Source: a virus
DNA: 59,490 nt
Reading direction: 5' to 3' (one strand)
Virus record (IMG/VR): IMGVR_UViG_3300023093_000001
Span: 1-59,490 of that record
In this document: positions 8,378 to 59,490 of the stretch, piece after piece
Layout of the letters: every line of letters begins with the position of its first letter
Position numbering within the stretch: the first letter of the stretch is position 1
Notes under the pieces: generated by a model
What the model saw: the letters and a program-made list of their open reading frames with translations, nothing else
Database searches by the model: none
Told to the model about the DNA's origin: nothing
Program-made: the position numbers and the translations under genes

Positions 8378-9466
8378 CTAGCCCTTTTTGACGGTGCGCT
8401 TTGCCAGGGCGAGGTTGATGATATGGCCGTACGCTCCACCAACAGCCACTACGACCGCTTCCCTGCCAGCTTTAGCTAGAGCGGCATCGTGCTTGTCGTC
8501 CGCCTTCTTGTCGCGGGCGGCTCTAAGAGCGACCTTTGTTGCGGCGGCTCCAGCAGTCCCCTTAGATGACTTATATGCAATTTTAGCGTCTTTGACAGCG
8601 GCCTTATTCTCGCCACTGAACGTACGCTTACGAGCAGCATCGATTGCTGCGGATCGCTCGGCGCTGCCATCTGCGCGAGACTTGCTATTACCCGTTGAAG
8701 TGCGTGCTTTACCAGCGATACCAAGACCATAGTCCATTTGTCGATGGCCCCACTTCATACCCTTCTTGCCGTAATGCTCGAGGAAGTCAGCCTGCTCTTC
8801 ATCGGTCATGTCTGCTCGGTACCCGACGTGCTCGAGGAAGTCTTCCTCAGACAGCATTCCGGACAGATCTACATCTGCCATGCGTTGGCCTTTCTGGGCT
8901 GAATGTGTGAGTGTGTCGGGAGGCAGTGGTTTGTCGCCCATCTTGGTGAAGCCCTTGCTCGGATCGAACGTTAGAGCAAAAATTAGCCGAGATGGAGTGT
9001 CGGCATGTGTCACCGCTTGCGAATCGACCATCTCGGCGTAGTAGTTACCCTTGCCGTCATGTGAAACTTCCGCACTGTAGCGACCAGAAGGTGACGTGCC
9101 GTAAGTCTCTTTGACCGTCTCAGCAAATACCTTATTGGTGAGCTTCTCGTAATCCTTGTAGTACTCTTGGACTTTTGGGTCGCTCTCATCGGAGAAGTCC
9201 TTGATCTTCTTGTACTTCGGATTCGCGTTAAACTTCTCAATGCCGCCATTATTCATCTTGTCTGCGACCTTGTTGTGTACAGCGATATAAGCAGCGGCCC
9301 CGTGCGAGCTTTCCTCCCACTTGGCATCCGCTTTTACCAACTTCTTCTGAGCACCTCGGTCTCCGGCCGCAGCCTTGTCCCGAATAACACCCCACTTCAT
9401 GCCTTTTACACCGGACTGTTCGAGGAATTGATCCTCGGTCATCATTCCGGTCAGAATGTCTGTCAC
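8378..9466 (-). CDS. KGMKWG-motif virion protein, two fused modules
   Basis: This 362-residue protein holds two copies of the module E-x-x-FLE-x-x-G-x-KGMKWG. The first is at the N-terminus (FLEQSGVKGMKWG); the second begins in frame at the ATG at 8881 (MADVDLSGMLSEEDFLEH, then FLEHYGKKGMKWGHR), with AAAGG upstream. The C-terminal 100 residues are Ala/Lys-rich with a small hydrophobic stretch. Proteins with this motif lie beside portals in many phages of Gram-positive hosts, but their function is unclear. I chose GTG at 9466 because it overlaps the terminase stop as GTGA and has GGAGG upstream; 9493 is the longer option. Confidence 0.7.
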   Translation of the reverse strand: MTDILTGMMTEDQFLEQSGVKGMKWGVIRDKAAAGDRGAQKKLVKADAKWEESSHGAAAYIAVHNKVADKMNNGGIEKFNANPKYKKIKDFSDESDPKVQEYYKDYEKLTNKVFAETVKETYGTSPSGRYSAEVSHDGKGNYYAEMVDSQAVTHADTPSRLIFALTFDPSKGFTKMGDKPLPPDTLTHSAQKGQRMADVDLSGMLSEEDFLEHVGYRADMTDEEQADFLEHYGKKGMKWGHRQMDYGLGIAGKARTSTGNSKSRADGSAERSAAIDAARKRTFSGENKAAVKDAKIAYKSSKGTAGAAATKVALRAARDKKADDKHDAALAKAGREAVVVAVGGAYGHIINLALAKRTVKKG

Positions 9467-11226: not shown

Positions 11227-11634
11227 TTACAGGCCCTTGAGCAGCTTAGCTACTGCAAGAGCTCCTTCTTTTGCGGTTGGAGACTTGGCGATGGCGACAG
11301 CACCCGCGCCTAGGGAAATGACGGTGCCCGCGGTCTTTAGAACCTTGAGCGTCTTCTCCGTTGTCTCCGCGCCCTTCTTGAACTTGCTCGGGTTTGCCTT
11401 CTTGTACTCTGAGAGGAGCTGGTTTCGCTTGTTCAGCTTGGCCAGATCATCATTGCTCAGATTGTCGACGCCGTTCTTCTTGATACGGGTCTTGATCTTG
11501 TTATACCGAGCAGCATCAGCTGAAGTGTGAGCAGGATTTGAGGATGCTTTACGCACGCCCCACTTCATACCCTTTCTGCCGAAGTGTTCGAAGAAGTCGC
11601 CTTCCGAATACATGTCGGTGAGTAGATCTGTCAT
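11227..11634 (-). CDS. KGMKWG-motif virion-associated protein
   Basis: This 135-residue protein has an N-terminus (MTDLLTDMYSEGDFFEHFGR, then KGMKWGVR) that is nearly the same as the start of the 8378-9466 protein, so the two share a duplicated module. The middle is helical and charged. The C-terminus has a hydrophobic segment (VISLGAGAVAIA) that may be membrane-active. GGAGGCG precedes the ATG. It lies directly upstream of the large terminase. Function unknown. Confidence 0.65.
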   Translation of the reverse strand: MTDLLTDMYSEGDFFEHFGRKGMKWGVRKASSNPAHTSADAARYNKIKTRIKKNGVDNLSNDDLAKLNKRNQLLSEYKKANPSKFKKGAETTEKTLKVLKTAGTVISLGAGAVAIAKSPTAKEGALAVAKLLKGL

Positions 11635-16343: not shown

Positions 16344-17363
16344 TTACTTGATCAGTCGAGCGTTCTCTGCGTTGGCACGCTGGAGAGCAGCCTTCATGTT
16401 AGGGCCGAGACGGTTGTCGCCGGAGTAGCCCCATCGCTTCGTGAGCCAAGATACGATGCTGCCACCGTAGTTCTTGTTCAGGAAGTTCTGAAGACCACCC
16501 TGTGAACCACCTCCCCACTTGTTGTCGAGCTTACCCGTGTAGCCGTTCTGCTTCGCCACCCATTGAAGACCACGCACATCGCCGATGGAACCGACGTTGG
16601 CGATGGTCACGGCGGGATATGACGTAGAAGCAGGAGGTGCAGAAACGAGGGAGTCAGCATACCGCTGGTGTGCGGCTTGCGTCTGACCCTGCCAGTCCCC
16701 GTCGATCAGGCCGGTGTAGCCCCAAGCGCGAAGGAATGTCTGGTACGCCTTGGTTGCCTTGATGGTCTTCAAACCACGCAATCCATCCTCGGGTCCAGCA
16801 TTATACCCGTGCGCATTCATCCACACCTGACGGTTGTACCAGTCCTGGTTGAAGCCAGGTGCCTGATTGGCTGGCGCGGACGGTGCTCCGCCGATCGAAC
16901 CACGGTAGGTCTTGTGCCAGGGCTCGCCGAAGTTGTAGCCCTCGTTCTCGAAGCCGTAGTCCTTGGCGTGATCTCGCATCCAGTTGTCTCGCGCAGTGCC
17001 TCGAGTCATGACACCCTTGTCGGAGCCAGTGTCGCGGATGTCGAGCGAGCGCGGACCGTTGGGGCCGGACTCCTGGTGATTGGACTGTCCGGGAACTGCG
17101 ACGGTGCCGGCGTTGGAGATGCGGTACCAGAGAGTACCTTTCCAGTTCCGGACGTCGTAGGCCTTGCGCCCCTTGAGGTTGGCAGCCGTTACGTAGCGCA
17201 CTCGGAAGATTGCTTCCTGCTCGGCGTCGGTACGAGTACCACTTGTGATTTCGAGGTGGACTCCAGGGAAGGCCTTCTCGAAGTCCGTGTCCATCCGACG
17301 GAAAGCGGCCGCGACGTTCTGTTCGACGCGCTGGCCATTGATGGTCTCGAATACGTAACTCAT
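16344..17363 (-). CDS. Endolysin: M15-type peptidase with C-terminal wall-binding repeats
   Basis: This 339-residue protein has an N-terminal VanY/M15-like metallopeptidase region with SGTRT, a SNHQ block near residue 92, LDIRDTG, and EPWH near residue 144, matching the zinc-ligand pattern. Residues 170-339 hold helical peptidoglycan-binding-like repeats (WMNAHGYN..., WVAKQNGYTGKLDNKWGGGS). It should cut a peptide bond in host peptidoglycan at lysis. It is near the start of the late operon, far from the holin candidate at 49.1 kb. Confidence 0.85.
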   Translation of the reverse strand: MSYVFETINGQRVEQNVAAAFRRMDTDFEKAFPGVHLEITSGTRTDAEQEAIFRVRYVTAANLKGRKAYDVRNWKGTLWYRISNAGTVAVPGQSNHQESGPNGPRSLDIRDTGSDKGVMTRGTARDNWMRDHAKDYGFENEGYNFGEPWHKTYRGSIGGAPSAPANQAPGFNQDWYNRQVWMNAHGYNAGPEDGLRGLKTIKATKAYQTFLRAWGYTGLIDGDWQGQTQAAHQRYADSLVSAPPASTSYPAVTIANVGSIGDVRGLQWVAKQNGYTGKLDNKWGGGSQGGLQNFLNKNYGGSIVSWLTKRWGYSGDNRLGPNMKAALQRANAENARLIK

Positions 17364-17593
17364 TCGCTTGCCTCCTCTACGCCAGTCGATTCGAACACGG
17401 TGTCTTCGAGGCTGACCCCAGAGACGAATACGAGTTCGTCGTTCTCGTCGAGTCCGTAGGCGTCGGGCTTGCCGTCACCATCAAGATCCACGTCGAGCGG
17501 GAGCAGAGGCTTCTCGTTCCCGTCTTTCTTCCACTGAAGAAGAGTGTCGCGCATGGCAACCTTGTCTTCCTCAGGCATGTCTGAGATTTGCAT
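17360..17593 (-). CDS. Small acidic protein with Ca-binding-like DLDGDGKPD loop
   Basis: This 77-residue protein has DVDLDGDGKPDAYG, which resembles an EF-hand/dockerin calcium loop. I chose the ATG at 17593 because AGGAGAAGAACTGATG upstream is a close variant of the start-associated sequence found before many early genes. It overlaps the endolysin start by 4 bp (ATGA), so the two are probably co-translated. Function unknown. Confidence 0.6.
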   Translation of the reverse strand: MQISDMPEEDKVAMRDTLLQWKKDGNEKPLLPLDVDLDGDGKPDAYGLDENDELVFVSGVSLEDTVFESTGVEEASE

Positions 17594-17606
17594 CAGTTCT
17601 TCTCCT
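17591..17606 (-). promoter_or_regulatory. Start-associated sequence variant
   Basis: AGGAGAAGAACTGATG includes the ATG of the 17360-17593 gene. It differs by one base from the early-gene form and is the only good copy in the late region. Confidence 0.6.
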
Positions 17607-17678
17607 AGGCTTTGTGTCTCAACCCCAAGCCTTCCTACCCACTTCACCCCTGGTTAGAAGGGGAATGGTCTAAGAAAA

Positions 17679-17749
17679 TGACCCCCCGGGGCTATTTTTG
17701 GGGGTCAGGCGATACAGGGAGGGGGTGCCTTTTGCGAGACCCCCCTCCC
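17679..17749 (-). terminator. Two adjacent strong hairpins before the late operon
   Basis: One hairpin pairs TGACCCCC with GGGGGTCA (17679-17707); its minus-strand 3' side runs into TCATTTTCTT, which suits intrinsic termination. The second pairs GGGAGGGGG with CCCCCCTCCC (17717-17749). Together they separate the 17755-20703 genes from the endolysin operon. Confidence 0.7.
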
Positions 17750-17754
17750 CCTAT

Positions 17755-18015
17755 CTAAGAATCCTCGGACTCTTGGATATTTACTTTGACTTTCTTGAAG
17801 ATGCCGAGCGTATTCTCTCGAATGATTTCATCGATCGCTTGTTCTCGAGCTTCGTCCTGGTCGAGCTCACTCAACTCGTCACTACTTACTGCTATCCTAG
17901 CCAGGAGGCCGGGGCTGTTGTAGCCATGGGAGAAGTCGAACTCAAACCAATCATCCCATTGTGTTGCTGGATCATAAGGATTGTCAACCGTAGTCAACAT
18001 GTGTAGATCAGTCAT
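17755..18015 (-). CDS. Conserved acidic phage protein
   Basis: This 86-residue protein is MTDLHMLTTVDNPYDPATQW and onward, with FEFDFSHGYNSPGLLARI and a DELSELDQDEA helix. I chose the ATG at 18015 because GAGGTG stands 9 bases upstream; 18027 is an alternative. It follows the polymerase-like gene and ends just before the hairpin pair. Function unknown. Confidence 0.6.
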   Translation of the reverse strand: MTDLHMLTTVDNPYDPATQWDDWFEFDFSHGYNSPGLLARIAVSSDELSELDQDEAREQAIDEIIRENTLGIFKKVKVNIQESEDS

Positions 18016-18036
18016 TAGTTCATTCACCTCTATCCA

Positions 18037-20703
18037 TTAGCTTGTAAGCATTGCACTGTTGAGTGTACTAGTAGGAACGCCTAGTGCACTAGCTACCTCT
18101 GCCTGTGTGTAACCAGCAGCAAGCATACTACTAGCCCTAGCCAGCTTAGCGTCGTTCATGACGGGCCTATCTCTAGGTGTAGCCAGGGACTTGACACTAT
18201 CTAGATCCGCATGGTTGAGGATCTGTACCAGCTTGTTGTTGCTAATAGCACCTGCTTGTATGGCGTTCCACTCACTGGGCGTGATCTCTATGTCCGTGTT
18301 CTTAACACCCATGCGCAAACGCGCTTGAGTAAGAGCCTGAGACTTGATCTTCTGGAGATCTTCTTTCTCCATACCAGGGGTGGCATCCTGTTTCATTCTG
18401 ATCTGGGCGTTTGCTAGCACCTGTGCTTGTCGCTCTAGGGGGGCCTTTTTAAGGGCCTCATTCAGCTTAGCATTGAGGGTGCTGACATCCTTAGCGAAGG
18501 CCGCCTTAGCAGAGGGTGAGTAAGGGATGGTCTTAGTTTCAAGAGCCGACTTTCTTGCACTATTGGCTAGGGACTTGAGTGAGTTAGCATACGTAGCATA
18601 CACTTCCTCAATGGGCTGCCCAGAAGAGAGCGACCTAGCATCCCTAGTTTCAGCCATCTTAGTCGACTGAAACTTCTTGACTACAGTTTGACCCTTCGCA
18701 TTCTCATACGATTCACCCGTGTACTGCCAGACTTTCTCGCCTGTCAGTGGGTCAATAGGGCCACCATCCTTAGCAGCGCGAGGCTTTCTGTTAGCTACGT
18801 CAATTCGAGACGAAGCTTTAGAGATAAGCGTAGACGCGCCACGAGCACCACTTCCCTCAGAAGACTGATATTTCACCTTCAGAGCAGCGATCCCATTGTC
18901 CTTAGCAGATTGCTTATAGTCCAAGTGGTGCTTCTCAGCATCAATGACAACCATTGAGTGGCGTACAGCGGCAGCAAGTTCTCTGTCGTTGGCACCCTTA
19001 ATGGACATGTCAGTGATTAGGTTAGAAATGTCTCCCATTTTAAGCTGCTTGTTGCGGGCGCTCATTTTCGGAGCATCCTTTGGCAGCTTGTAGATCTGAG
19101 GGTCGAAGTTCTCAAGCCCCTTCAAAGCAGGCTGATTCTTCACCTTCTTACTATTGTTCGGAATAACCAGAACAGTGTCGCCATCGAAATCAGCACCAGA
19201 CAACCGAGAGGCTACCTTGGAGTTGATTCCTACAGCATCGACAGCATTCGAAATAAGCCGCTTTGCATCTGGGTTCTTGTTGTTGACAGTCAGCTCAGGG
19301 ATCTCAAACTTACCACCATGAGGATGCCGAATAAGCACAACCTTCTCACCATCACGGTAATTAGGAGCGTAGATTTCGGTGTCCTTGAGTGAAGCTATCG
19401 GCAGGATGACATGACTCTTGGTCCTTGGGAGACCTGAAGCCTTAAGGTGCACCGAAGACGAATCCGCACCATCCGCAAACTTCTCGAGAAGCAACTTGCG
19501 AACCGCAGGATTTGTCAAACCCATGATCTCGTCGTACTCGGCCTTCTTCTCATTGAAGCGAAGACCTAGCTGTTCCTTAGCCAGAGCTGGTGTCTGCTTA
19601 GAAAGGAACTGCGAAGAAAGCTTGCTAGACCAAGTGGACCAGTTACCTTCCTCGTTGACGATGTTGAGAGCCGATACAACCTTCTTGCCATCTGGCGTTG
19701 TACGCTGTCGAATAACAGTTCCGAAAGGGTTTTCCGGATCAGACTTCAGCGGCTTCATAGCATCAAGTTTGTTACCCGTGTTGGACTTGTTCGTATTGAA
19801 GCGAATATCCACACCGTCAGGAAGGTCGTCGGCATACATCGCCATGCCCTTCAAATAGTGCGTACCTCCAACAGCAACTCGAACCTGAGCATAACGGGCA
19901 TTACCCATACTAAGATCTGCGACACCGCGACGAATTTCAATAACACCATCAGCATCAGCTCCACCATCCTCAGCGTACTTCACAGCAACGCGTTTGGGGT
20001 TGACCTGAAGTGGGGGCATTACTGATGTCCAGGATTTACCTGAATCATCCGTCCACGTTGTGATCCCACGAATCTTGTCCTGATTCTTAATTACATCAGG
20101 GAACGTGGTACCTGGAGGCGCGAGAATCTTAGTGTTGGTGAACTGACCAGTACCTACCTGAGGAACCTTGACGTAGAAAGCTTTGTAGCCTTCCTCTTCG
20201 AGGGCAGCGATAGCGGTCTTCATCTTCTGGTTCGTTACACCCAAGTAGTGTTCTGTTCCAGTACCAACATCCAGATATGTTTTCTCAGCAACCTGATCTC
20301 TCAACATCTTCGTGGTGTTAAGCAGCTGGTCGCTACGTTCTTGGATCGCAGGGTTAAGAAGCGCCCTAACGTTCGATTCCCCCTTGAGCCCCATCCGTTC
20401 AGCAATGGCACTATTGGAATATCCCTTGTCCTTGAGTCTCACAGCCATCATCATGTCATCCTTGCGGACAGCATTCTTGGCGACCGACTTCAAAGCTCGA
20501 AGTTGCGTGGTTGAGTTGAGCCCCAAGCCTTTCGCAATATCAGCTTCACTCAGCCCTTGCTTCTTAAGAGTCTCGACATGATCCAGGAAGGATTTGTTCC
20601 TCTGGTTTGGATTCTCACCAGACCCCCAAGGATATCGCCCCGAACGGCGAAGTACGCCCTCATGCATGAGGAACGCTGTTACTGCGTCTAGTTCCTCTTC
20701 CAT
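18037..20703 (-). CDS. Putative single-chain two-barrel RNA polymerase with HTH segments
   Basis: This 888-residue protein carries GADFDGDTVLVIP, with the D-x-D-G-D triad at residues 505-509. This is the magnesium-binding signature of the RNA polymerase beta-prime barrel. Upstream are LKGMAMY (Lys near 285) and NTNKS (Lys near 306), in the order and spacing expected for the partner barrel in single-chain enzymes such as YonO and QDE-1. Helix-turn-helix-like stretches lie at 47-72, 90-116 and near 857-888. The N-terminus (FLMHEG...GRYPWGSG) resembles the FLEH/KGMKWG motif of the virion proteins here. It probably transcribes phage genes, perhaps from the virion. Start 20703 chosen by TGATG overlap. 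Confidence 0.65.
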   Translation of the reverse strand: MEEELDAVTAFLMHEGVLRRSGRYPWGSGENPNQRNKSFLDHVETLKKQGLSEADIAKGLGLNSTTQLRALKSVAKNAVRKDDMMMAVRLKDKGYSNSAIAERMGLKGESNVRALLNPAIQERSDQLLNTTKMLRDQVAEKTYLDVGTGTEHYLGVTNQKMKTAIAALEEEGYKAFYVKVPQVGTGQFTNTKILAPPGTTFPDVIKNQDKIRGITTWTDDSGKSWTSVMPPLQVNPKRVAVKYAEDGGADADGVIEIRRGVADLSMGNARYAQVRVAVGGTHYLKGMAMYADDLPDGVDIRFNTNKSNTGNKLDAMKPLKSDPENPFGTVIRQRTTPDGKKVVSALNIVNEEGNWSTWSSKLSSQFLSKQTPALAKEQLGLRFNEKKAEYDEIMGLTNPAVRKLLLEKFADGADSSSVHLKASGLPRTKSHVILPIASLKDTEIYAPNYRDGEKVVLIRHPHGGKFEIPELTVNNKNPDAKRLISNAVDAVGINSKVASRLSGADFDGDTVLVIPNNSKKVKNQPALKGLENFDPQIYKLPKDAPKMSARNKQLKMGDISNLITDMSIKGANDRELAAAVRHSMVVIDAEKHHLDYKQSAKDNGIAALKVKYQSSEGSGARGASTLISKASSRIDVANRKPRAAKDGGPIDPLTGEKVWQYTGESYENAKGQTVVKKFQSTKMAETRDARSLSSGQPIEEVYATYANSLKSLANSARKSALETKTIPYSPSAKAAFAKDVSTLNAKLNEALKKAPLERQAQVLANAQIRMKQDATPGMEKEDLQKIKSQALTQARLRMGVKNTDIEITPSEWNAIQAGAISNNKLVQILNHADLDSVKSLATPRDRPVMNDAKLARASSMLAAGYTQAEVASALGVPTSTLNSAMLTS

Positions 20704-21260
20704 CAGGATGCCCGAGCCTTCCATTTTTCAATCAGTTCGTCGAATGTGAGAATCTTGTCGATGTAGTGCGTGAGCTCATCCAGTGTTGGAATATACTCAC
20801 GAATTTCATCATTTTGGTAGATGCGAAGAACGATCTCAATTTCATTCGGTTTGAACTGGTACTCGATGAGGAAGAAGCAGGCGTAGATAATGAGCTGATC
20901 GAACTTAGCCTCATTCACACCATTCTTCAAGTCATGAATACGTAGAACGTTGTTGTAGAACGAAATTGCATCTGCCGTGCCGAAAGCATTGTTAGTTGCC
21001 ATCAGCATTACTTCAGTGTCCATCCGAAAACCAATAGCGTCATTGACGTAGGCATTCAGTGTTACATTGTTCTCAGGCATCCTCTGCTTGAGAAAGATTG
21101 CTTCTGCTGCAAATGCATGTAGGCGTGTGCCCATTGCTGCATCCATAGCATTCTGCCAGGACTCGTATAACTTGTCTTCGTCATACCTTACCCAGTGGTA
21201 TTTTGAGGCGGACAGGAAAGCGTGCCTTCCTGCATCACGTGAGTGATCTAACCATTTCAC
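20703..21260 (-). CDS. RecB/Cas4-like PD-(D/E)XK nuclease
   Basis: This 185-residue protein shows the RecB-family nuclease pattern: H48 in GTRLHAF, D97 in GTADAISF, D110-x-K112 in IHDLKNG, and the Q-x-x-x-Y motif at 122-126 (QLIIY). The family degrades or processes DNA ends and often works beside helicases. Here it neighbours a VRR-NUC gene and an SNF2-like helicase, which suggests a recombination or repair module. It overlaps both neighbours. Confidence 0.75.
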   Translation of the reverse strand: MKWLDHSRDAGRHAFLSASKYHWVRYDEDKLYESWQNAMDAAMGTRLHAFAAEAIFLKQRMPENNVTLNAYVNDAIGFRMDTEVMLMATNNAFGTADAISFYNNVLRIHDLKNGVNEAKFDQLIIYACFFLIEYQFKPNEIEIVLRIYQNDEIREYIPTLDELTHYIDKILTFDELIEKWKARAS

Positions 21261-26090: not shown

Positions 26091-26476
26091 CACGCCTCCA
26101 TCGAAGTGATAACAGGGACTTTGTCGTAGACCTGCCACAAGACGGGTTCTCCAACCTCGTCTTTCAGAACAACATTGCCCCAGATGTTAGGCATAGAATC
26201 TATCCAGGAAGACAGTTTGTTCCACTCAGACGCCTCCATCTCCACGTAATCCGACTTGGAAATGTTGAAGGTCGCAGCCAGGATGATTCCGCCGTCGACA
26301 TAGCCCTCTCTGGGAATAAGATCCTCGGCAGTTCCCATGCGGACTGCGTCATCAGGATCTTTTTGCTCGTCAAACCAAAAACCACCGGCCGACGCATTGA
26401 ATTTGAAGTAGGTTTGGGAATCGAAGGCTGGGTCAAACCCAAAAGACATCATTCGATCCCATGTGTTTTCGATCAT
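26090..26476 (-). CDS. Conserved acidic protein, unknown
   Basis: This 128-residue protein starts MIENTWDRMMSFGFDPAFDS and holds WNKLSSWIDSMPNIWGNVVL. An exact AAGGAGAAAAACTGATG start sequence precedes it. It opens the operon after the structured stretch at 26491-26854. Function unknown. Confidence 0.6.
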   Translation of the reverse strand: MIENTWDRMMSFGFDPAFDSQTYFKFNASAGGFWFDEQKDPDDAVRMGTAEDLIPREGYVDGGIILAATFNISKSDYVEMEASEWNKLSSWIDSMPNIWGNVVLKDEVGEPVLWQVYDKVPVITSMEA

Positions 26477-31514: not shown

Positions 31515-34500
31515 TTATGAAACGAACGCCTCGAAGTCTCCGAATGCGCGAATGGAGTCGGCTGCCGCATCCACCATCTTCTGGTAGTACGTGTAGTCGA
31601 CCAGATCGTGCTTACCCATCTTGTCCACGAACTCACTCTCTAGCCAGCGGTAGCCCTTACTTCCTGTGACCGCGAAGTTCTTCTCACCATCCCGACGAAT
31701 AAGAGTTCCACCCTCGGAAGTAACCGGAACGAAGCGTCCGATCTTACCGACGAACTGGCGATGCTCTTCATCAAGTGCCAGGTTGGGGTCATCGTTGTCG
31801 TTACCGGTGTAATCGATGTAGATGGCTCCCTTCTGGACCTGCTTGGTCTCACCGAGATCGCTGAACTGCTGCTGCTCGTGGCTGAAGAGCGTCTTGAAGA
31901 CTACCGGGTGCTTGAACTCAGCTCCAGTTGCCTCCCACGTACCGATCTTCTTCTCATCCGCAGCCCAAACGTACTTAGCGATGAATACGGCATCGTTGAC
32001 CAACGCCATCTTCTCGTAAGTAGCCTCGTGCTCGAACTCGTAGCCGTACCTGGCACCGAACTCCATGACCTCCTGGATGATCTCCGGTGTTGCGTTGGGG
32101 ATCTTGATCGAGTCGGTCTTGATATGAATGACGTCGTACTTTCCGTCCAGCACGTGATTCTTCAGATCGATCATGAACAGCGCGCCACGCTTGGCCACGA
32201 TGTTGTCGACGTTCTTTGGATCACGGAACATGTTGTCGAACGACGCCGAGGTAAGCCCATAGACGATGTTGATAACGATCTTGAGCGCGTAGGACAGGGC
32301 CTTGAGCTGCTCGTCTTGCTTCTCAGGATCGAAATATACGCCGTCAAGGAAAGGCTGCAGACGACCGTTGAGGACAGTACGCATCGTGTCGAAGTCCTTG
32401 CGCTTGATCGCCACACGAGCAGCCTTGAGGTCGCTGAAGGCCTGGGTATATGGCCCAAAGAGATCCAGCTGCTCGATCGACGACGGGTGCATTGACGCAA
32501 TATCCAAGACCGCGACGTTATGGTAGATGCCTGGCTTGGCAAATACATAGCCACCCTCGCTCGGGTTCTCCCCACGATAGGTCGAGACGTTCTTCTTGGT
32601 CTCGGGGTTGTACTCGTAGGTATAGCCCGGGAAGTCCTGAGACAGGTCCCGATATACGAACTTATCCTGAGGTTTGCGGTCATCGCCGAATACGATCTTG
32701 GCGGTGTGCTGCTGCGTGGAGGCATTCATCGACAGACCACTTAGCTCAGCAAGAATCTGCCGTGCTACATAATCCTGCTTGCGCTCGTTGAATACAGCCT
32801 CAGTCCCAAGAACGTCGTTGACACAGTACTCGACGATCTCTGCCCACTTGTCCTCTGGGACGGGGGTATCCCAGTCGTACTGGTTCTCGACGTGATGCAG
32901 CCCCAGCTCGATTTCCCACTTCTTCAACGACTGCTTGACAGACAGGTAGTCGAAGATATCGGTGTAGCTCAGGTTGTAAGCAGCACCGAAGTACGCGTTG
33001 GTGTTCCGATCGGACTCGATCAGACGCTTCGACAGGTTGTACAACTGGATGTTGCTGTAACCAAGCGACGCTGCGTACAGGATATGGTTGTCATACCTGC
33101 GGCAGTTGTAGCCAACGAGAAGCATCGTGAAGAGCTCTTCCACAGCCTGAGCCGTGGGGTTGATCATACGAACGACTTCTGCATCACCTTCGAACTTCCA
33201 GCAGATGACGAAAAGGTTCGGGAAGACCTCGACGTCAAAGAAGGTGAGCCTTGAATCCTGACCGTATTCGTCCGGAGCGCCCGCCTCCCCTGCGTTCTCA
33301 GATGCCAGCTTCATGTCCATCACGATCTTGAGACTCGTCAACCCCTGATGGGTCGAGTTGTTCGCGAACGCCATGAGCTTAGGCCGCATGTCCGAGACGT
33401 CGTAGATGAGTTCCTTGTTCTCATAGGCCTCTTGGAGAATATGGTGGATGAAGTCGATGTTGGACTTGGTCCCCGGATGGATCTCCTTCCGCAAGGCCCG
33501 CTGAATAAGGTCGCGCAGACCCTTTTCAGACTTGATTGTCTGTTGGCTAATCAATGTTTTCTCCTTTAGCGGTAGACCACTACTTATAGGGGCGACCGGT
33601 ACGTTGTTACATCTGGTGAGTCGACGCCTAAGAGATGAGTCTCCGGTGTATACTTTGACCTCGACTCCAGGCTCGAAGAGACGTCTGAGCTCTGTGGGAT
33701 CTCCTCCTTCATAGGTGTAATGTAGGTGGATCCCTCCACCGCTTTTACTAAACTCCGCGTAAGTCGCCGGCCACTGTGACGCCGCTTCCAGATTGCGCCC
33801 TGGATCCTTGTTGCCATCATCGTCCGTAAGGTCGAAATCAATGACAATATGGTTAAGAGGAACTTTAACAAAGTGCTCCTTGCTCGTATCTATGTCCTTT
33901 AGGACGGTTGAGACGACTTCGTTGGGTTTAGGATCGTAAGGCTTCCCATCACGCATCTTGGGAGCATCGGTCCACCACAATATAGGGTTGCCATCTTTGT
34001 TAGTGTACTGCGCGGGTTGTGTTGCCATCTCTTTGTCAAATATGGACTCGGTGGAATCCAGTACGAGACTGAAGACCATTTCGTCCTTGACCGTTTGTGT
34101 CTTGAACCGATCAGCCGAGAAACCTGAATACCATGAGCGAACTCTGGTACCGTCTGGCATCTCATGTCGATCTTCGAAGTTGTCAAAGTAATTGCCAAAT
34201 TCCTCACGGAACTTGTACTGAGCAATCTTGTACGGCACGCCGGTCTCCTCAACAAACTCCTTGTAGAGCTTGTATGCCTGAACGAGACTGATCCCGTCCT
34301 GGCTTGAGAATATGTCGTAGTGCGCTTCGATGAAGTTGTAGAACACGTCGGTCTTGAGCATCATGTCGATCGGGCGATACGAGGCGTAGAAGTCACGCCC
34401 CATGTTGCGATATACCTGCAGGCAATGCCAGGCGATCGCTCCGAGCTCAAACTTGATCTGCGATATAAGCGTCTGGTACTTACGCGGTGGAATCTTCTCA

Positions 34501-35393
34501 CCTGTCGGATGAACGTCAATGAGTCGCCGAAGAATACCAGACTTGGCATCTGTAATATGCACCGGCTTGTTCGTACCCATGAACAGAAATGCATTCACAT
34601 GCATCTTGTACGCGGGCTTGTTCTTCTCATTGATGAGCATGTCCTCGTGGGAAATGATCGAGTTCAGCTTGGTGTTGTCCTCGATCTTACTGAGGTCTCC
34701 ATCATGCTGAATTGCCACTAGCGGGTTGTGCCTGAACGCTTCTGTAGCAAACAGATTGTTGTTACCACCCAAGGCCTTCGCCTCGAATACCCCAACGTAG
34801 CCATCGAACAGCCACTGAATGAGGTTGATAACAGTACCCTTACCCGTACCAGGTCCTCCGTATAGCACGCAGAACTTCTGAATATCCTTCGCGTCCCCAG
34901 CGACAATCGCACCAATAGCCCATTCGAGCTTAGCTCGCTCGTCCGGGCTGTAGAGAATAGACATCATCTCATCGTAAGCTACTGTCGTCCCCTCTTCCAG
35001 AGGATATGGTAGTCGCTGGGACCTATAGTCTTCCTTGCTAACCTCTGTATTACTGAAGGTAAGCTCCTCGTCCAATTGCTTGTACGAATCACTTAGGTGT
35101 CCCATGTAATTGCGGAATTGAAGCCAACTGTTGGACGAGAAATTCCCCAGCAGCTTCCGGTGAACCTCAAAGGCTTGGGTCGTGACTTCCCACGCGGATA
35201 GCTCCTGATCAACAAGACGTTGCACGTCGAACTCGTCCTGAGACCACATGCCTTGATTCTCGTCCCATACAGCATAGAACGATTTAGCACGGATCATCAG
35301 ATCTTTAGAACGTGTGACTCGGAAGTCAGGATATACCGTTACAGTTCCCTTCTTACCACCATCGTCAACCTCCTTTATTTGATAGAAATCCAT
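31515..35393 (-). CDS. Replisome polyprotein: SF3 helicase, AEP primase and family B DNA polymerase
   Basis: This 1292-residue protein joins three enzymes. An SF3/D5-like helicase has Walker A GGPGTGKG near residue 178. An archaeo-eukaryotic primase (PrimPol type) has D-x-D in IVIDFDL near 517 and SGGGIHLHY near 549. A 3'-5' exonuclease plus family B polymerase has FFDVEVF near 716, motif A LDIASMHPSS near 961, motif B KIVINIVYG near 1036 and motif C HIKTDSIKI near 1089. Motif C has KTDS in place of DTDS. An in-frame AAAGGAG with TTG at 33554 could yield the exonuclease-polymerase alone. This one gene should unwind, prime and copy the genome. Confidence 0.85.
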   Translation of the reverse strand: MDFYQIKEVDDGGKKGTVTVYPDFRVTRSKDLMIRAKSFYAVWDENQGMWSQDEFDVQRLVDQELSAWEVTTQAFEVHRKLLGNFSSNSWLQFRNYMGHLSDSYKQLDEELTFSNTEVSKEDYRSQRLPYPLEEGTTVAYDEMMSILYSPDERAKLEWAIGAIVAGDAKDIQKFCVLYGGPGTGKGTVINLIQWLFDGYVGVFEAKALGGNNNLFATEAFRHNPLVAIQHDGDLSKIEDNTKLNSIISHEDMLINEKNKPAYKMHVNAFLFMGTNKPVHITDAKSGILRRLIDVHPTGEKIPPRKYQTLISQIKFELGAIAWHCLQVYRNMGRDFYASYRPIDMMLKTDVFYNFIEAHYDIFSSQDGISLVQAYKLYKEFVEETGVPYKIAQYKFREEFGNYFDNFEDRHEMPDGTRVRSWYSGFSADRFKTQTVKDEMVFSLVLDSTESIFDKEMATQPAQYTNKDGNPILWWTDAPKMRDGKPYDPKPNEVVSTVLKDIDTSKEHFVKVPLNHIVIDFDLTDDDGNKDPGRNLEAASQWPATYAEFSKSGGGIHLHYTYEGGDPTELRRLFEPGVEVKVYTGDSSLRRRLTRCNNVPVAPISSGLPLKEKTLISQQTIKSEKGLRDLIQRALRKEIHPGTKSNIDFIHHILQEAYENKELIYDVSDMRPKLMAFANNSTHQGLTSLKIVMDMKLASENAGEAGAPDEYGQDSRLTFFDVEVFPNLFVICWKFEGDAEVVRMINPTAQAVEELFTMLLVGYNCRRYDNHILYAASLGYSNIQLYNLSKRLIESDRNTNAYFGAAYNLSYTDIFDYLSVKQSLKKWEIELGLHHVENQYDWDTPVPEDKWAEIVEYCVNDVLGTEAVFNERKQDYVARQILAELSGLSMNASTQQHTAKIVFGDDRKPQDKFVYRDLSQDFPGYTYEYNPETKKNVSTYRGENPSEGGYVFAKPGIYHNVAVLDIASMHPSSIEQLDLFGPYTQAFSDLKAARVAIKRKDFDTMRTVLNGRLQPFLDGVYFDPEKQDEQLKALSYALKIVINIVYGLTSASFDNMFRDPKNVDNIVAKRGALFMIDLKNHVLDGKYDVIHIKTDSIKIPNATPEIIQEVMEFGARYGYEFEHEATYEKMALVNDAVFIAKYVWAADEKKIGTWEATGAEFKHPVVFKTLFSHEQQQFSDLGETKQVQKGAIYIDYTGNDNDDPNLALDEEHRQFVGKIGRFVPVTSEGGTLIRRDGEKNFAVTGSKGYRWLESEFVDKMGKHDLVDYTYYQKMVDAAADSIRAFGDFEAFVS
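33552..33570 (-). promoter_or_regulatory. Internal in-frame ribosome binding site and TTG in the replisome gene
   Basis: CTAAAGGAGAAAACATTG puts a TTG (33554) five bases after AAAGGAG..., in frame at the primase-polymerase boundary (LPLKEKTLISQQ). A 679-residue exonuclease-polymerase would result. TTG is a weak start, and the LPLK residues may simply be conserved protein sequence. Confidence 0.35.
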
Positions 35394-37072: not shown

Positions 37073-37987
37073 TTACAGCTTGGAGTTGATCTCTCCGTCG
37101 ACGTTGAAGTCCAGCAGGATGCCGTCCGTCTCGCCGTTCAGGAACTGCTTCTTGGCCTGCGAGTTGACCGGGTTCTCCCAGCCAAAGTCGATGTAGCCGT
37201 CCTTGCTTTCCGGAAGATCGCGGTGAAGCCATCCAACGACCTGGCCGGCGGGAACCTCGGGAATGCCAAGCCAACTATATACCTCGTTGAGGTAGACGTA
37301 GCCACGAGCTTCGAGTCGATCGTTAGCCCAGTTCTGCATGTTCTTCAGGAACAGGAAGTTGAGCTCTCGTTTGGACCGCTCATAGTTCTTGTTGGACGGA
37401 TCGAACCACTGGACGTAGGGCGAGAGGCCTTCGCCAGTGAAGATCTTGACCTTGGTCTTCTTGCCGTCCTCATCCTCGACCACCTCGGTGCTGATGCCGT
37501 ATCGAATATCGGCTTCTTTGTCGGCACCGATGGCCTCGATGACACGCTGGCGATACGCGTTGAGTGCACTCTCAGCAGACTTGACCGCGGCTACGAGAGC
37601 AACCTGACGCTTCTGCGCAAGTCCCTGTCCGGCGATGATGGAAATGGACGAAGCCAGCGCAAGCGACACGCCAGGACCGTAGAGCTTGACCAGATCCAGA
37701 CCCGTGTGGAGGTACAGGTAGGCAAGGTCCTTCTGACGATCCTTCGGCGATGCGTATTCACCAGCTGCAGACTTCTCCGAGATGACGACCTTGCCCATCT
37801 CGTGGTTGTCCACCAGCGGCTCGAGCTTAAGGGTTGCCCGAGCGACCAGAACGGTAGCTGCCAAGTTACCCACAACACCGACTGCCGTGAGGATCTGGGG
37901 CGAATATCGGCTAACCCGACCTGCCACCAGCTGCACCTTCGGCCCACCAACAACGGCGAGCTTTCCAGCGATTGATGCGAAATTCAT
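37073..37987 (-). CDS. DUF6353-like membrane protein 1
   Basis: This 304-residue protein has hydrophobic segments ILTAVGVVGNLAATVLVARA and YGPGVSLALASSISIIAGQG. A soluble part follows with ALNAYRQRVIEAIGADKEAD, LFLKNMQNWANDRLEARGYV and LNEVYSWLGIPEVPAGQVVGW. It matches the layout of the other such protein at 43334-44119. The family is known to me only as uncharacterised (DUF6353). It should sit in the inner membrane with a large cytosolic domain. Confidence 0.6.
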   Translation of the reverse strand: MNFASIAGKLAVVGGPKVQLVAGRVSRYSPQILTAVGVVGNLAATVLVARATLKLEPLVDNHEMGKVVISEKSAAGEYASPKDRQKDLAYLYLHTGLDLVKLYGPGVSLALASSISIIAGQGLAQKRQVALVAAVKSAESALNAYRQRVIEAIGADKEADIRYGISTEVVEDEDGKKTKVKIFTGEGLSPYVQWFDPSNKNYERSKRELNFLFLKNMQNWANDRLEARGYVYLNEVYSWLGIPEVPAGQVVGWLHRDLPESKDGYIDFGWENPVNSQAKKQFLNGETDGILLDFNVDGEINSKL

Positions 37988-39962: not shown

Positions 39963-39992
39963 TTCACTATAAGCTGTGTAATTCGTGCGAGG
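39963..39992 (-). promoter_or_regulatory. Promoter-like element P1
   Basis: The minus strand reads CTCGCACGAATTACAC, then AGCTTATAGTGAAC. It points at the 39529-39867 gene. Between it and the gene lies the inverted repeat TTGTAC/GTACAA. Confidence 0.65.
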
Positions 39993-41679: not shown

Positions 41680-41710
41680 GTCACTATAACCCTTGTAATT
41701 CTTGCGAAGG
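41680..41710 (-). promoter_or_regulatory. Promoter-like element P2
   Basis: Minus strand: CTTCGCAAGAATTACAAG, then GGTTATAGTGACACC. It ends about 25 bases before the 41496-41651 ATG, leaving a short leader with AAAAGGAAA. Confidence 0.7.
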
Positions 41711-43333: not shown

Positions 43334-44119
43334 TCATTGAAACCCTTTCCAGTAGTTACCCAGCGGCTTCCTCAAGAAGGAAATCACGATCGCGGGCTCG
43401 TCCTGGTCGGACATCTGAGTTGAGTAGTCGAGTTCAACCGGCGACTCAGGGGTCCATCCGACTTCCTCACCCGAATCGATCGGAGCGAGGCCGATGGCGA
43501 TATAGAACTCGTTCAACGATGCGTACTCCTGGTTCAGAATACGGAAGTTGATGTCGTTCACCGCCTTGTCTACCAACTGCTTCGTCGATTTGAAGTAGCG
43601 GCCGGTGTACTTGTCGTAGAACAGCTGGTCGCCGTTCCCAACCATGATTACTTCGCGGGTTGAGACCGGATCCTTCTCGATTGTTTCCCGAGCGATGTCG
43701 TCACGCACCTTGCGGTCCTTTGCCGGAGCCTCAGCCGCCATGCGCTCCTGGTACTCACGAGCAGCCGCTTCGCCGATACTGATCACGGAGATCAGAGCCG
43801 CGTTACGACGCATGTTTATCGACTGGGCACCGATGATGGCTCCGATCGTGATGATCTCCAGTCCCAGAGCTGGAATATAGTCCTTCCAGACCAGCTTGAT
43901 GACTTCGCGCTTGGTGAGTGGAACGTCCACCCAACCTTCTTCGTGATCGGCGTTCTTCTCGACGAAGGCGCTGTCCAACTTGAAGGTCGCCCGGGGCGTT
44001 GCCTTGACCGCCAGAATTGCAGATCCGACGGAGCCCGCCACACCGAGTCCGGTGAGGATGGTTGATGAGTTCCGCTTGAGCAGAGGCGCTACCCCGCGGA
44101 CGATTGTTGCGATATCCAT
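43334..44119 (-). CDS. DUF6353-like membrane protein 2
   Basis: This 261-residue protein has TILTGLGVAGSVGSAILAVKATP, then YIPALGLEIITIGAIIGAQSINMRRNAALIS (written here as parts), two hydrophobic stretches. The soluble C-terminus includes RILNQEYASLNEFYIAIGL, which matches the LNEVYSWLGI block of 37073-37987. The paired genes look like distant duplicates. Function unknown. Confidence 0.6.
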   Translation of the reverse strand: MDIATIVRGVAPLLKRNSSTILTGLGVAGSVGSAILAVKATPRATFKLDSAFVEKNADHEEGWVDVPLTKREVIKLVWKDYIPALGLEIITIGAIIGAQSINMRRNAALISVISIGEAAAREYQERMAAEAPAKDRKVRDDIARETIEKDPVSTREVIMVGNGDQLFYDKYTGRYFKSTKQLVDKAVNDINFRILNQEYASLNEFYIAIGLAPIDSGEEVGWTPESPVELDYSTQMSDQDEPAIVISFLRKPLGNYWKGFQ

Positions 44120-44454: not shown

Positions 44455-44490
44455 GGGTTCACTATAAGCTATGTTTTTCTTGCGGGGGTT
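44455..44490 (-). promoter_or_regulatory. Promoter-like element P3
   Basis: Minus strand: CCCGCAAGAAAAACATAG, then CTTATAGTGAACC. It points at 44128-44361. The inverted repeat ACTGTG/CACAGT lies between it and the gene. Confidence 0.6.
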
Positions 44491-47449: not shown

Positions 47450-47482
47450 TGTCACTATAAGCGGTGTAATTCTTGCGAGGGT
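47450..47482 (-). promoter_or_regulatory. Promoter-like element P4
   Basis: Minus strand: CTCGCAAGAATTACAC, then CGCTTATAGTGACACG. It probably drives 47001-47318 and the surface protein. The leader between is about 130 bases and contains a GATTC/GAATC inverted repeat. Confidence 0.7.
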
Positions 47483-48174: not shown

Positions 48175-48206
48175 GTGTCACTATAGCCTGTGTAATTCAT
48201 GCGATT
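48175..48206 (-). promoter_or_regulatory. Promoter-like element P5
   Basis: Minus strand: ATCGCATGAATTACAC, then GGCTATAGTGACACCC. It lies about 22 bases before the 48152 start. The preceding gene ends with the terminator at 48247-48292. Confidence 0.7.
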
Positions 48207-48615: not shown

Positions 48616-48646
48616 GTGTCATTATAACCCGTGTAAACTCTGCGAA
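48616..48646 (-). promoter_or_regulatory. Promoter-like element P6
   Basis: Minus strand: TTCGCAGAGTTTACAC, then GGGTTATAATGACACC, with a perfect TATAAT. A GTGATACAAG word lies just upstream (48647-48656), as at P8. Confidence 0.7.
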
Positions 48647-49056: not shown

Positions 49057-49087
49057 GTGTCACTATAACGCGTGTATTTACTGCGAG
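49057..49087 (-). promoter_or_regulatory. Promoter-like element P7
   Basis: Minus strand: CTCGCAGTAAATACAC, then GCGTTATAGTGACACC, about 20 bases before the 49038 GTG. It lies immediately after the last late gene, so late and early transcription meet here. Confidence 0.7.
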
Positions 49088-57661: not shown

Positions 57662-59455
57662 TCACGGACGGCGCGAATCGTCGCCCATTTCCATAGCGTT
57701 TCTTGCAGTCGGATATGATACTCCGTTTAGAGAAAACCACTGGTTCACTCCAGCGTTCGCATAGATCGAGTTTGGTGGTTTTCCGTTAACGGCGTTTATA
57801 TCGTATGGAACCGAGACGTCAGCGCGGCCATTGGCGCCATTCGAAGCCACCAAATGAATTTGTCGATACCTAGATCGCCACTTTCTAGGAATAAATAGCA
57901 TTGACGCGCCGATTGTCCCGGCATTGTATAGTCCTCGTAGGAAGACGATTCCATCGGGGGTCTTCAACATTGCAGGATTGGACCAAATAGTTCCGTTCGG
58001 ATCGTATCTTGCCCATCCGGTAAAGAAGATTAAGCCAGTAATCCATCCAGTAGTGTTTGGGCCAGGGATTGGAACTTCTTTAAAGTTCGAAAGAGAAGCC
58101 CGATAGAAGGCCCCCAGAGCGACTCCGATGTTCAGTATCTTACCAAACCCACCAGCGCCATTTAGCCCAGCTGCCAACCGACCGAAAGCATACACATTGT
58201 AGCACCACATTGGTTGATGCGTTGCAAGAACACCGTTTGGATAGGTATTACTTCCAGCAGCCATATCAATGATCGTTTGATTTGCGGCCGTCGCAGAAGA
58301 AGTGCTAATTATACCCTCAAATAGGGTAACACCATCTACATCTAAAGTATATCCAACCCGACTAACTCTCGTAGGGGAACATCCGGGAAAGGTCCAACTA
58401 ATAGTTGAGCTAGTAGTCGCTGGCCCTGCCTGCCAAACGGTCCAAGGTGACGAAAGGGTTAAGGGGACAAAAGTGCCATATCCAGCAGCTCGAAACACAA
58501 CATCGTCTAATGCAACCCAACTAGTATTCCCACTACCATTTACAATACCACCCCATCGTACTGTTCCATCGTCAGCGCAAACGTAGATAGTGCCGTTTCC
58601 ACCACCTGCCGAAACGGCAAATATCTGATCAAATTCCGGTCGCATAGCAATAGGTAGTGTTCCAAAAATACTACCAACAGGAACCGCAGCATTAGCATTA
58701 CCGACCAAACCACCAAGACTGACAATTCCAGTCGATGACATGGTTGCCTGAAACGTACCATTACCTAGAACTGTCCCGGGGCCAAACAATGTTGCTTGTT
58801 CCCCATATTCGCCAAATACATCATTAGCGCCATAGCTTCCGTAAGTCGCCCAGGGTGGATTTAAAGCAATATCCCACTGAGGCAGAAACGTTGGTCGTGT
58901 GGCCAAATCGGGGCCAATGACATACCAAGTATTTCCGGATCGACCCACTAAAACCGAACTTCCTGCTTTAAATTCCATATCAGCAGTACTATTCGTAAAG
59001 TGAACATCATTAATTACGGTGCCATCAGTGAGCGTAACTGTGGGCAATCCAAAGAACCACCCCGCCGATATCGTGCCCTTTCGTAATCCACCCGAAAGAG
59101 CTAGCGACTCAGCAGTGATTGCCTTTGTCGAGTTCACCCCAGCCAAGGCCTCAGCCTGGGTTGCAAGCTGAACGAGTCCTCGGCGATCGTTGGTAGCGGT
59201 CAGAGCCGCAAGACCCGAGGGGGTGACAGCACGTACAGTGTCGGTACCAGTAGTTACCTCAACGTTAGTTGCAAGCTCCACCAGCCCGGAAACATCCGTT
59301 GTAGCCGCGATGGGGTACACCTTGCCCGCATTGTACGTGCTGCCGTCGTGACGAGTGAGAATAAGGTCGCCAGAGGGATCGATATCCCCACGAACAACAG
59401 TTCCGTTCTCAATCGCGAGCATACGCTCCATAGTAAAGACCTGAACGGTTCCCAC
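57662..59455 (-). CDS. Tail fibre-like protein
   Basis: This 597-residue protein has two N-terminal fibre repeats, SGLVELATNVEVTTGTDTVR and RGLVQLATQAEALAGVNSTK, each ending in a (R/K)A(V/I)T block. This is the phage tail-fibre repeat pattern. The rest is beta-rich without recognised enzyme motifs and should hold the receptor-binding part. GTG start with GAAGGGAGA. The gene crosses the assembly junction: its first codons lie in the repeated 127 bases. Confidence 0.75.
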   Translation of the reverse strand: MGTVQVFTMERMLAIENGTVVRGDIDPSGDLILTRHDGSTYNAGKVYPIAATTDVSGLVELATNVEVTTGTDTVRAVTPSGLAALTATNDRRGLVQLATQAEALAGVNSTKAITAESLALSGGLRKGTISAGWFFGLPTVTLTDGTVINDVHFTNSTADMEFKAGSSVLVGRSGNTWYVIGPDLATRPTFLPQWDIALNPPWATYGSYGANDVFGEYGEQATLFGPGTVLGNGTFQATMSSTGIVSLGGLVGNANAAVPVGSIFGTLPIAMRPEFDQIFAVSAGGGNGTIYVCADDGTVRWGGIVNGSGNTSWVALDDVVFRAAGYGTFVPLTLSSPWTVWQAGPATTSSTISWTFPGCSPTRVSRVGYTLDVDGVTLFEGIISTSSATAANQTIIDMAAGSNTYPNGVLATHQPMWCYNVYAFGRLAAGLNGAGGFGKILNIGVALGAFYRASLSNFKEVPIPGPNTTGWITGLIFFTGWARYDPNGTIWSNPAMLKTPDGIVFLRGLYNAGTIGASMLFIPRKWRSRYRQIHLVASNGANGRADVSVPYDINAVNGKPPNSIYANAGVNQWFSLNGVSYPTARNAMEMGDDSRRP

Positions 59456-59490
59456 TTCGTCTCCCTTCTAGAGCGAACTAAGTTGATATG
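59364..59490. repeat. Terminal direct repeat, right copy
   Basis: Identical to bases 1-127. The 57662-59455 gene reads continuously through this copy, and the 105-863 gene continues from the left copy, so the two ends join without loss of frame. Confidence 0.95.

Follow-up and report, generated by a model that had tools for sequence, protein, structure and literature searches.

The polymerase gene and its neighbours

The window, that is, the whole 59,490-nt stretch of DNA analysed here, is an IMG/VR virus record holding a siphophage genome, whose annotated genes lie on the minus strand in the order tail, early small genes, replicase, helicase, VRR nuclease, exonuclease, polymerase, PHROG 4303, lysis, terminase and head. 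The polymerase ORF (18037..20724, minus strand) comprises 895 aa when counted from the upstream ATG at 20724, with an alternative start, Met8, at 20703, and is assigned to the single-chain two-barrel RNA polymerases from its PHROG 4291 match, its fold match and an invariant Asp triad. The ATG of Met8 overlaps the stop of the Cas4/RecB-type exonuclease gene (20703..21260, minus strand; identified from PHROG 3953 and synteny) in the form ATGA, and Met8 is plausibly the true start of the polymerase. An earlier note on this DNA had proposed the ORF as 18037-20703, which is real and begins at this Met8; its residue numbers, Asp 505/507/509 and Lys 285/306, are exact from Met8 and become 512/514/516 and 292/313 from the longer start, whose numbering is used below. 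The ORF is not a chance reading frame, because the PHROG 4291 profile matches it end to end, over residues 17-892 (E=0, 1297 bits), and because tblastn finds homologues, each below 60% identity, in 250 phage records of GenBank.

Directly downstream of the polymerase lies a 90-aa ORF of PHROG 4303 (17755..18027, minus strand), which carries a DNP..W..D signature and adjoins the polymerase gene in phages from Actinobacteria to Lactococcus. At 93 of 98 loci an ORF of at least 50 aa directly follows the polymerase, nearly always with the DNP motif. The model of the PHROG 4303 protein is confident, yet a structural search with it gave no match. Since PHROG 4303 occurs in 250 phage records, the same number as the polymerase, it was considered as a partner subunit of the enzyme and rejected, as the exonuclease shows an equal count of 250 and the strict co-occurrence is that of lineage core genes. 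A GC-rich element at ~17682-17704 (minus strand) resembles one found downstream of PHROG 4303 at 81 of 112 loci (GTCTT..AAAATTCTCCGGGGG); considered as a late promoter, this conserved element was reread as a likely cos site. A small ORF at 17360-17647 (minus strand) contains a DVDLDGDGKPDAYGLDENDE stretch that is similar to a calcium-binding loop. The lineage of Lactococcus phage 1706 shares both the gene order and the polymerase (gp75), and the large replicase of the window (31515-35393, minus strand) is a homologue of 1706 GP55, which has been published as a helicase-primase-PolB 'four-in-one' enzyme (PMC12205980). Among the late genes, a repeat at 8747-8788, 9389-9430 and 11557-11598 encodes a KGMKWG-like peptide in several proteins, and is present in the phage genome Bilo too (L160 2285-2346, 2837-2898). 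The two ends of the window, 1-127 and 59364-59490, are an identical 127-nt direct repeat, as would result from assembling a genome that is circular or terminally redundant.

Family, fold and HTH units of the polymerase

The library name of PHROG 4291 is 'RNA-dependent RNA polymerase', a name that rests on similarity with no assay behind it, and homologues in GenBank are called either RNA-dependent RNA polymerase or HTH protein. The phages that bear them infect Arthrobacter, Gordonia, Streptomyces, Lactococcus, Microbacterium, Curtobacterium, Rhodococcus and other hosts. Matches in IMG/VR number at least 507 stretches, and a further search of genome contigs returned 138 with polymerase matches, including isolates of Hungatella, Blautia and Faecalibacterium. 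In an alignment of 232 full-length homologues, with identity down to 43%, D512, D514, D516 and K292 are invariant in 232/232 and K313 is kept in 230/232. The three Asp residues, whose lack of conservation had been named beforehand as a possible refutation of the polymerase assignment, thus form an invariant triad within the DFDGD metal motif (residues 512-516; 19177..19191, minus strand). The earlier remark that such an enzyme had not been described in this form stands for the combination, a two-barrel polymerase with HTHs, for which neither a description nor activity data were found in the open-licence papers searched, but not for the gene family, which is already known from PHROG 4291 and GenBank; the promoter-like motif described below is apparently unreported as well.

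A single-sequence search of the PDB with the polymerase gave nothing useful, and a wider alignment was needed. An AlphaFold model built from 59 relatives (mean pLDDT 82.6) matches solved two-barrel polymerases in a Foldseek search of the PDB, with QDE-1 best (E=3e-10), followed by P74 gp62 (6e-8) and maize RDR2 (8e-7), all at probability 1.00, and by cellular largest subunits at about 0.01; at the level of the overall fold, this agrees with the prediction of double-psi barrels. Whole-chain TM-scores of these matches are low (0.29-0.35), as expected because the domains are placed differently. The first barrel region, which carries Lys292 and Lys313, spans residues ~240-358 (19651..20007, minus strand), as judged from model strands, the fold match and the YonO alignment, and the second, with DFDGD, spans residues ~430-523 (19156..19437, minus strand), as judged from the model, the fold match and conservation; the limits of both are estimates. 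Beyond the barrels, a set of helices at residues 555-606 (18907..19062, minus strand; MG..SNLITDM...HSMVVIDAEKHHLDY) stands out by its conservation and aligns with IGEYSNNIT of YonO, and may correspond to the bridge-helix region.

The likeness to YonO of the Bacillus phage SPbeta emerges at the level of profiles, whereas a single-sequence comparison gave nothing useful and there is no BLAST-level similarity. Against a YonO-family profile, a small set of four sequences only, hhalign reports 82.5% probability (E 1e-5) for a match that is co-linear over the core and across both barrel regions, and in which K292 (LKGM) lines up with WVKGLL of YonO and DFDGD with its DNDGD. Control profiles remained far lower, 40 column-shuffled ones reaching at most 1.1% and a reversed one 0.0. 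Masking of DFDGD lowers the match to 0.6%, and hence its statistical weight rests largely on that motif. Both enzymes are single-chain, with two barrel regions and co-linear Lys and Asp motifs, and both are encoded by phage genes near a late-gene boundary. YonO transcribes late genes, and the paper describing it left its own promoter, and any need for extra factors, to be determined (PMC5467207); the window polymerase differs in its HTH units and in the early promoter-like motif of its phage.

Three HTH-like units are predicted at residues ~45-80, 88-123 and 858-892. The two N-terminal ones (residues 45-123; 20356..20592, minus strand), with putative recognition helices TTQLRA and ESNVRALL, are indicated by family matches, by model helices and by R76 and R120, which lie in or beside these helices and, among the first 73 relatives, show a conservation of at least 95%. 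The C-terminal unit (residues 858-892; 18049..18153, minus strand) reaches 25.2 bits with Pfam HTH_23, above the curated cut-off of 24.6. HTH_23 matches two stretches of the polymerase, the best at 867-888; HTH protein families of Pfam and PHROG match at residues 86-115 and 853-888 and, weakly, at 47-71, and the AlphaFold model places helices at 39-55/60-66/72-99, 104-123 and 858-894. The three HTH-like stretches noticed in the earlier note are supported by these results, as is its overall interpretation of a single-chain phage RNA polymerase with HTH segments. Among the other core proteins of the lineage that were scanned, with Pfam covering part of the core, none carries an HTH.

A promoter-like motif of the early genes

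A repeat search detected a 38-nt repeat seven times in the window, nine times in the phage genome Circum and five times in Bilo, with a common core. Phages of the lineage carry multiple copies of a directional 27-bp motif, TCGCA-N4-TTACA-N5-TATAATGA, and in all 69 records scanned it is confined to one strand per record. The window has seven copies, all on the coding (minus) strand, at 49060..49086, 48619..48645, 48178..48204, 47452..47478, 44459..44485 (with 3 mismatches), 41681..41707 and 39964..39990, and after each an ORF starts within ~90 nt, some of these ORFs being small and uncertain. Scanned with up to 3 mismatches, the pattern TCGCRNNNNTTACANNGNNTATARTGA matches 22 of 24 lineage records, from 1 to 26 times each and always on a single strand, while a reversed control pattern matches none of the 24. 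Motif discovery in some Firmicutes phages at first gave T-rich, terminator-like words. Clostridia-type phages carry the motif in a TATWATGG form, and the Lactococcus members differ in having variants without TCGC, those of P162 and CHPC971 keeping an identical TTACA-N5-TATA spacing in motif discovery and relaxed scans. An apparent link between the loss of TCGC and a changed HTH2 in P162 was set aside, as it concerns one lineage only.

TATAAT is the host -10 consensus. The motif contains such a -10-like box, TATAAT or TATAGT, on which the sites had been selected. When 119 sites were picked by the downstream core alone, their logo still showed TCGCA at -31 to -27 with 80-91% per base. A sigma70-type TTGACA placed 16-18 bp upstream of TATAAT is no more frequent at these 119 sites than in shuffles, the mean match to it being 2.35/6 compared with 2.46. 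The motif does not conform to a canonical host promoter; it belongs to the phage lineage and marks early genes. No mention of such a promoter was found in the open-licence papers searched on Arthrobacter, Microbacterium, Gordonia, Rhodococcus and Streptomyces phages, and the motif may have been described elsewhere.

In 12 genomes, some of them mapped only in part, the stretch from the tail genes to the replicase holds nearly all copies, and none was found between terminase (TerL) and TMP. One copy also precedes the nuclease-polymerase operon in Circum, G001, G002 and G004 (by 89-117 nt) and in Bilo (by 271 nt); P162 and Secretariat each have one copy further downstream, and the G009 genome ends within the early block. 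In the window, no full copy occurs upstream of its own polymerase operon. In two lysogen genomes most matches are concentrated in the prophage: 5 of 6 in the 5.7 Mb of G058 and 5 of 7 in the 6.6 Mb of G062 fall within ~3 kb, with one and two matches elsewhere, respectively. Each cluster shares contig and strand with the prophage polymerase and sits 24-30 kb upstream of it.

When IMG/VR was scanned with the exact motif, blind to the polymerase, and 45 contigs of at least 25 kb from a sample of the matches were checked, motif and enzyme co-occurred almost completely in the large contigs: among the matches listed, the polymerase is present in 22 of 23 contigs of at least 40 kb, and in 8 of 22 of 25-40 kb. 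The 15 motif-bearing contigs without it all lack the adjacent exonuclease too, and 8 carry the lineage replicase, a pattern to be expected from truncated contigs of the same lineage, with a few unassigned.

Proposed promoter recognition by the polymerase and competing explanations

Taken as a whole, the evidence points to a sigma-independent phage polymerase that probably reads the 27-bp early promoter with its own HTHs. Encoded by a large siphophage lineage, the enzyme would be a single-chain, two-barrel, DNA-dependent RNA polymerase with an active site formed by two barrels, the Asp triad on one and Lys292 and Lys313 on the partner, and would itself catalyse RNA synthesis on a DNA template. 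Its N- and C-terminal HTH units would read the TCGCA, TTACA and TATAATGA blocks in place of the host RNA polymerase, so that no sigma factor would be needed, and the enzyme would transcribe the block of early genes as well as, in some of the phages, the operon that encodes it. Direct recognition is favoured because the motif is non-canonical, lineage-bound and early, and because the polymerase is the sole HTH protein among the core proteins scanned. Common descent also explains the co-occurrence of motif and enzyme, since the polymerase, the exonuclease and PHROG 4303, each in 250 records, all behave like core genes. The earlier note had proposed the HTHs as built-in promoter-reading domains; a lineage-specific early promoter-like motif that they may read now backs this idea, and its link to the enzyme is one that we infer from sequence. 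Single-chain two-barrel phage polymerases with early promoter motifs of their own are also known from Thermus phages, namely gp64/gp96 of P23-45 (PMC10770324) and gp62 of P74 (PDB), the latter being the best phage fold match of the window polymerase. These Thermus phage proteins belong to a different sequence family, and gp96 is fused to the tape measure; ChIP-seq and the mapping of start sites connected the promoter motifs there, described as AT-rich and GC-rich, with the enzymes (PMC10770324).

The strongest competitor, which we nevertheless consider unlikely, is a real polymerase that acts late, as YonO does in driving late genes (PMC5467207), the early motif being used by the host RNA polymerase, either by itself or together with a phage factor. 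The presence of TATAAT means that the host polymerase could use the sites, and the polymerase gene stands at the lysis/terminase boundary, much as yonO does relative to the late genes of SPbeta. Against this, there is no sigma70 -35 element at the right spacing, the two upstream blocks of the motif are conserved across hosts, matches in the two host genomes are mostly confined to the prophage, no other HTH protein was found among the core proteins scanned, and the region downstream of the polymerase yielded no repeated late promoter, the conserved element there resembling a cos site.

Two further explanations are improbable to a similar degree. The motif might be the operator of a repressor or other regulator, overlapping host promoters, which would suit its several intergenic copies and the fact that some relatives are prophages; it is, however, directional, non-palindromic and confined to a single strand, and in lytic phages it is present as well and followed by early ORFs. 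The protein might instead be a true RNA-dependent RNA polymerase, as annotated in PHROG 4291, in keeping with QDE-1 as the best fold match and with a weak Pfam RdRP match. QDE-1 and cellular RNA-dependent RNA polymerases (PMC1750930) share with it the DxDGD and, as predicted, two barrels in one chain. The Pfam RdRP score, however, is 16.4 bits, under a cut-off of 23.8, and the window polymerase differs from QDE-1 in its N- and C-terminal HTH DNA-binding units and in its setting in a dsDNA phage with a promoter-like motif; moreover, QDE-1 has been solved with a DNA template (7y7r), and the fold therefore does not fix the template. Least probable of all is a DNA-binding or structural protein derived from a polymerase but inactive, for although the 1706 homologue is labelled structural in a note of the GenBank record of ReqiPoco6, a label absent from the current record of 1706, all catalytic residues are retained across the 232 relatives down to 43% identity.

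If the sigma-independent polymerase does read the early motif, the source of the first enzyme molecules has to be considered, as one promoter seems to serve both the early genes and the polymerase operon, and the enzyme may thus be carried in the virion or first made by the host polymerase. Packaging in the virion might solve this start-up problem, and the ReqiPoco6 note on the 1706 homologue would fit with it. A fuller scheme, in which a virion-delivered, sigma-independent polymerase starts the infection in hosts from Streptomyces to Lactococcus and Clostridia, and in which the three motif blocks, spaced by roughly one helical turn, would each be faced by one of its three HTHs, is put forward tentatively and seems rather doubtful as a whole. 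As the case of YonO illustrates (PMC5467207), single-chain two-barrel polymerases raise the question of how promoters are found without sigma, and a compact enzyme with HTHs of its own and a sharp candidate promoter in isolated, culturable phages of Arthrobacter, Streptomyces, Gordonia and Lactococcus makes it directly testable. If true, the proposed function would also mean a corrected annotation for a family that occurs in 250 phage records and in hundreds of metagenomic contigs.

Two other features of the early and replication region may be recorded. Two paralogous DUF6353 proteins, encoded at 37073-37987 and 43334-44119 (minus strand), are conserved in the lineage. A translation-start leader, AAGGAGAAAAACTGATGA, is repeated at 26467, 29758, 40281, 43203, 46967, 47309 and other positions (minus strand), and its conservation exceeds what a ribosome-binding site needs.
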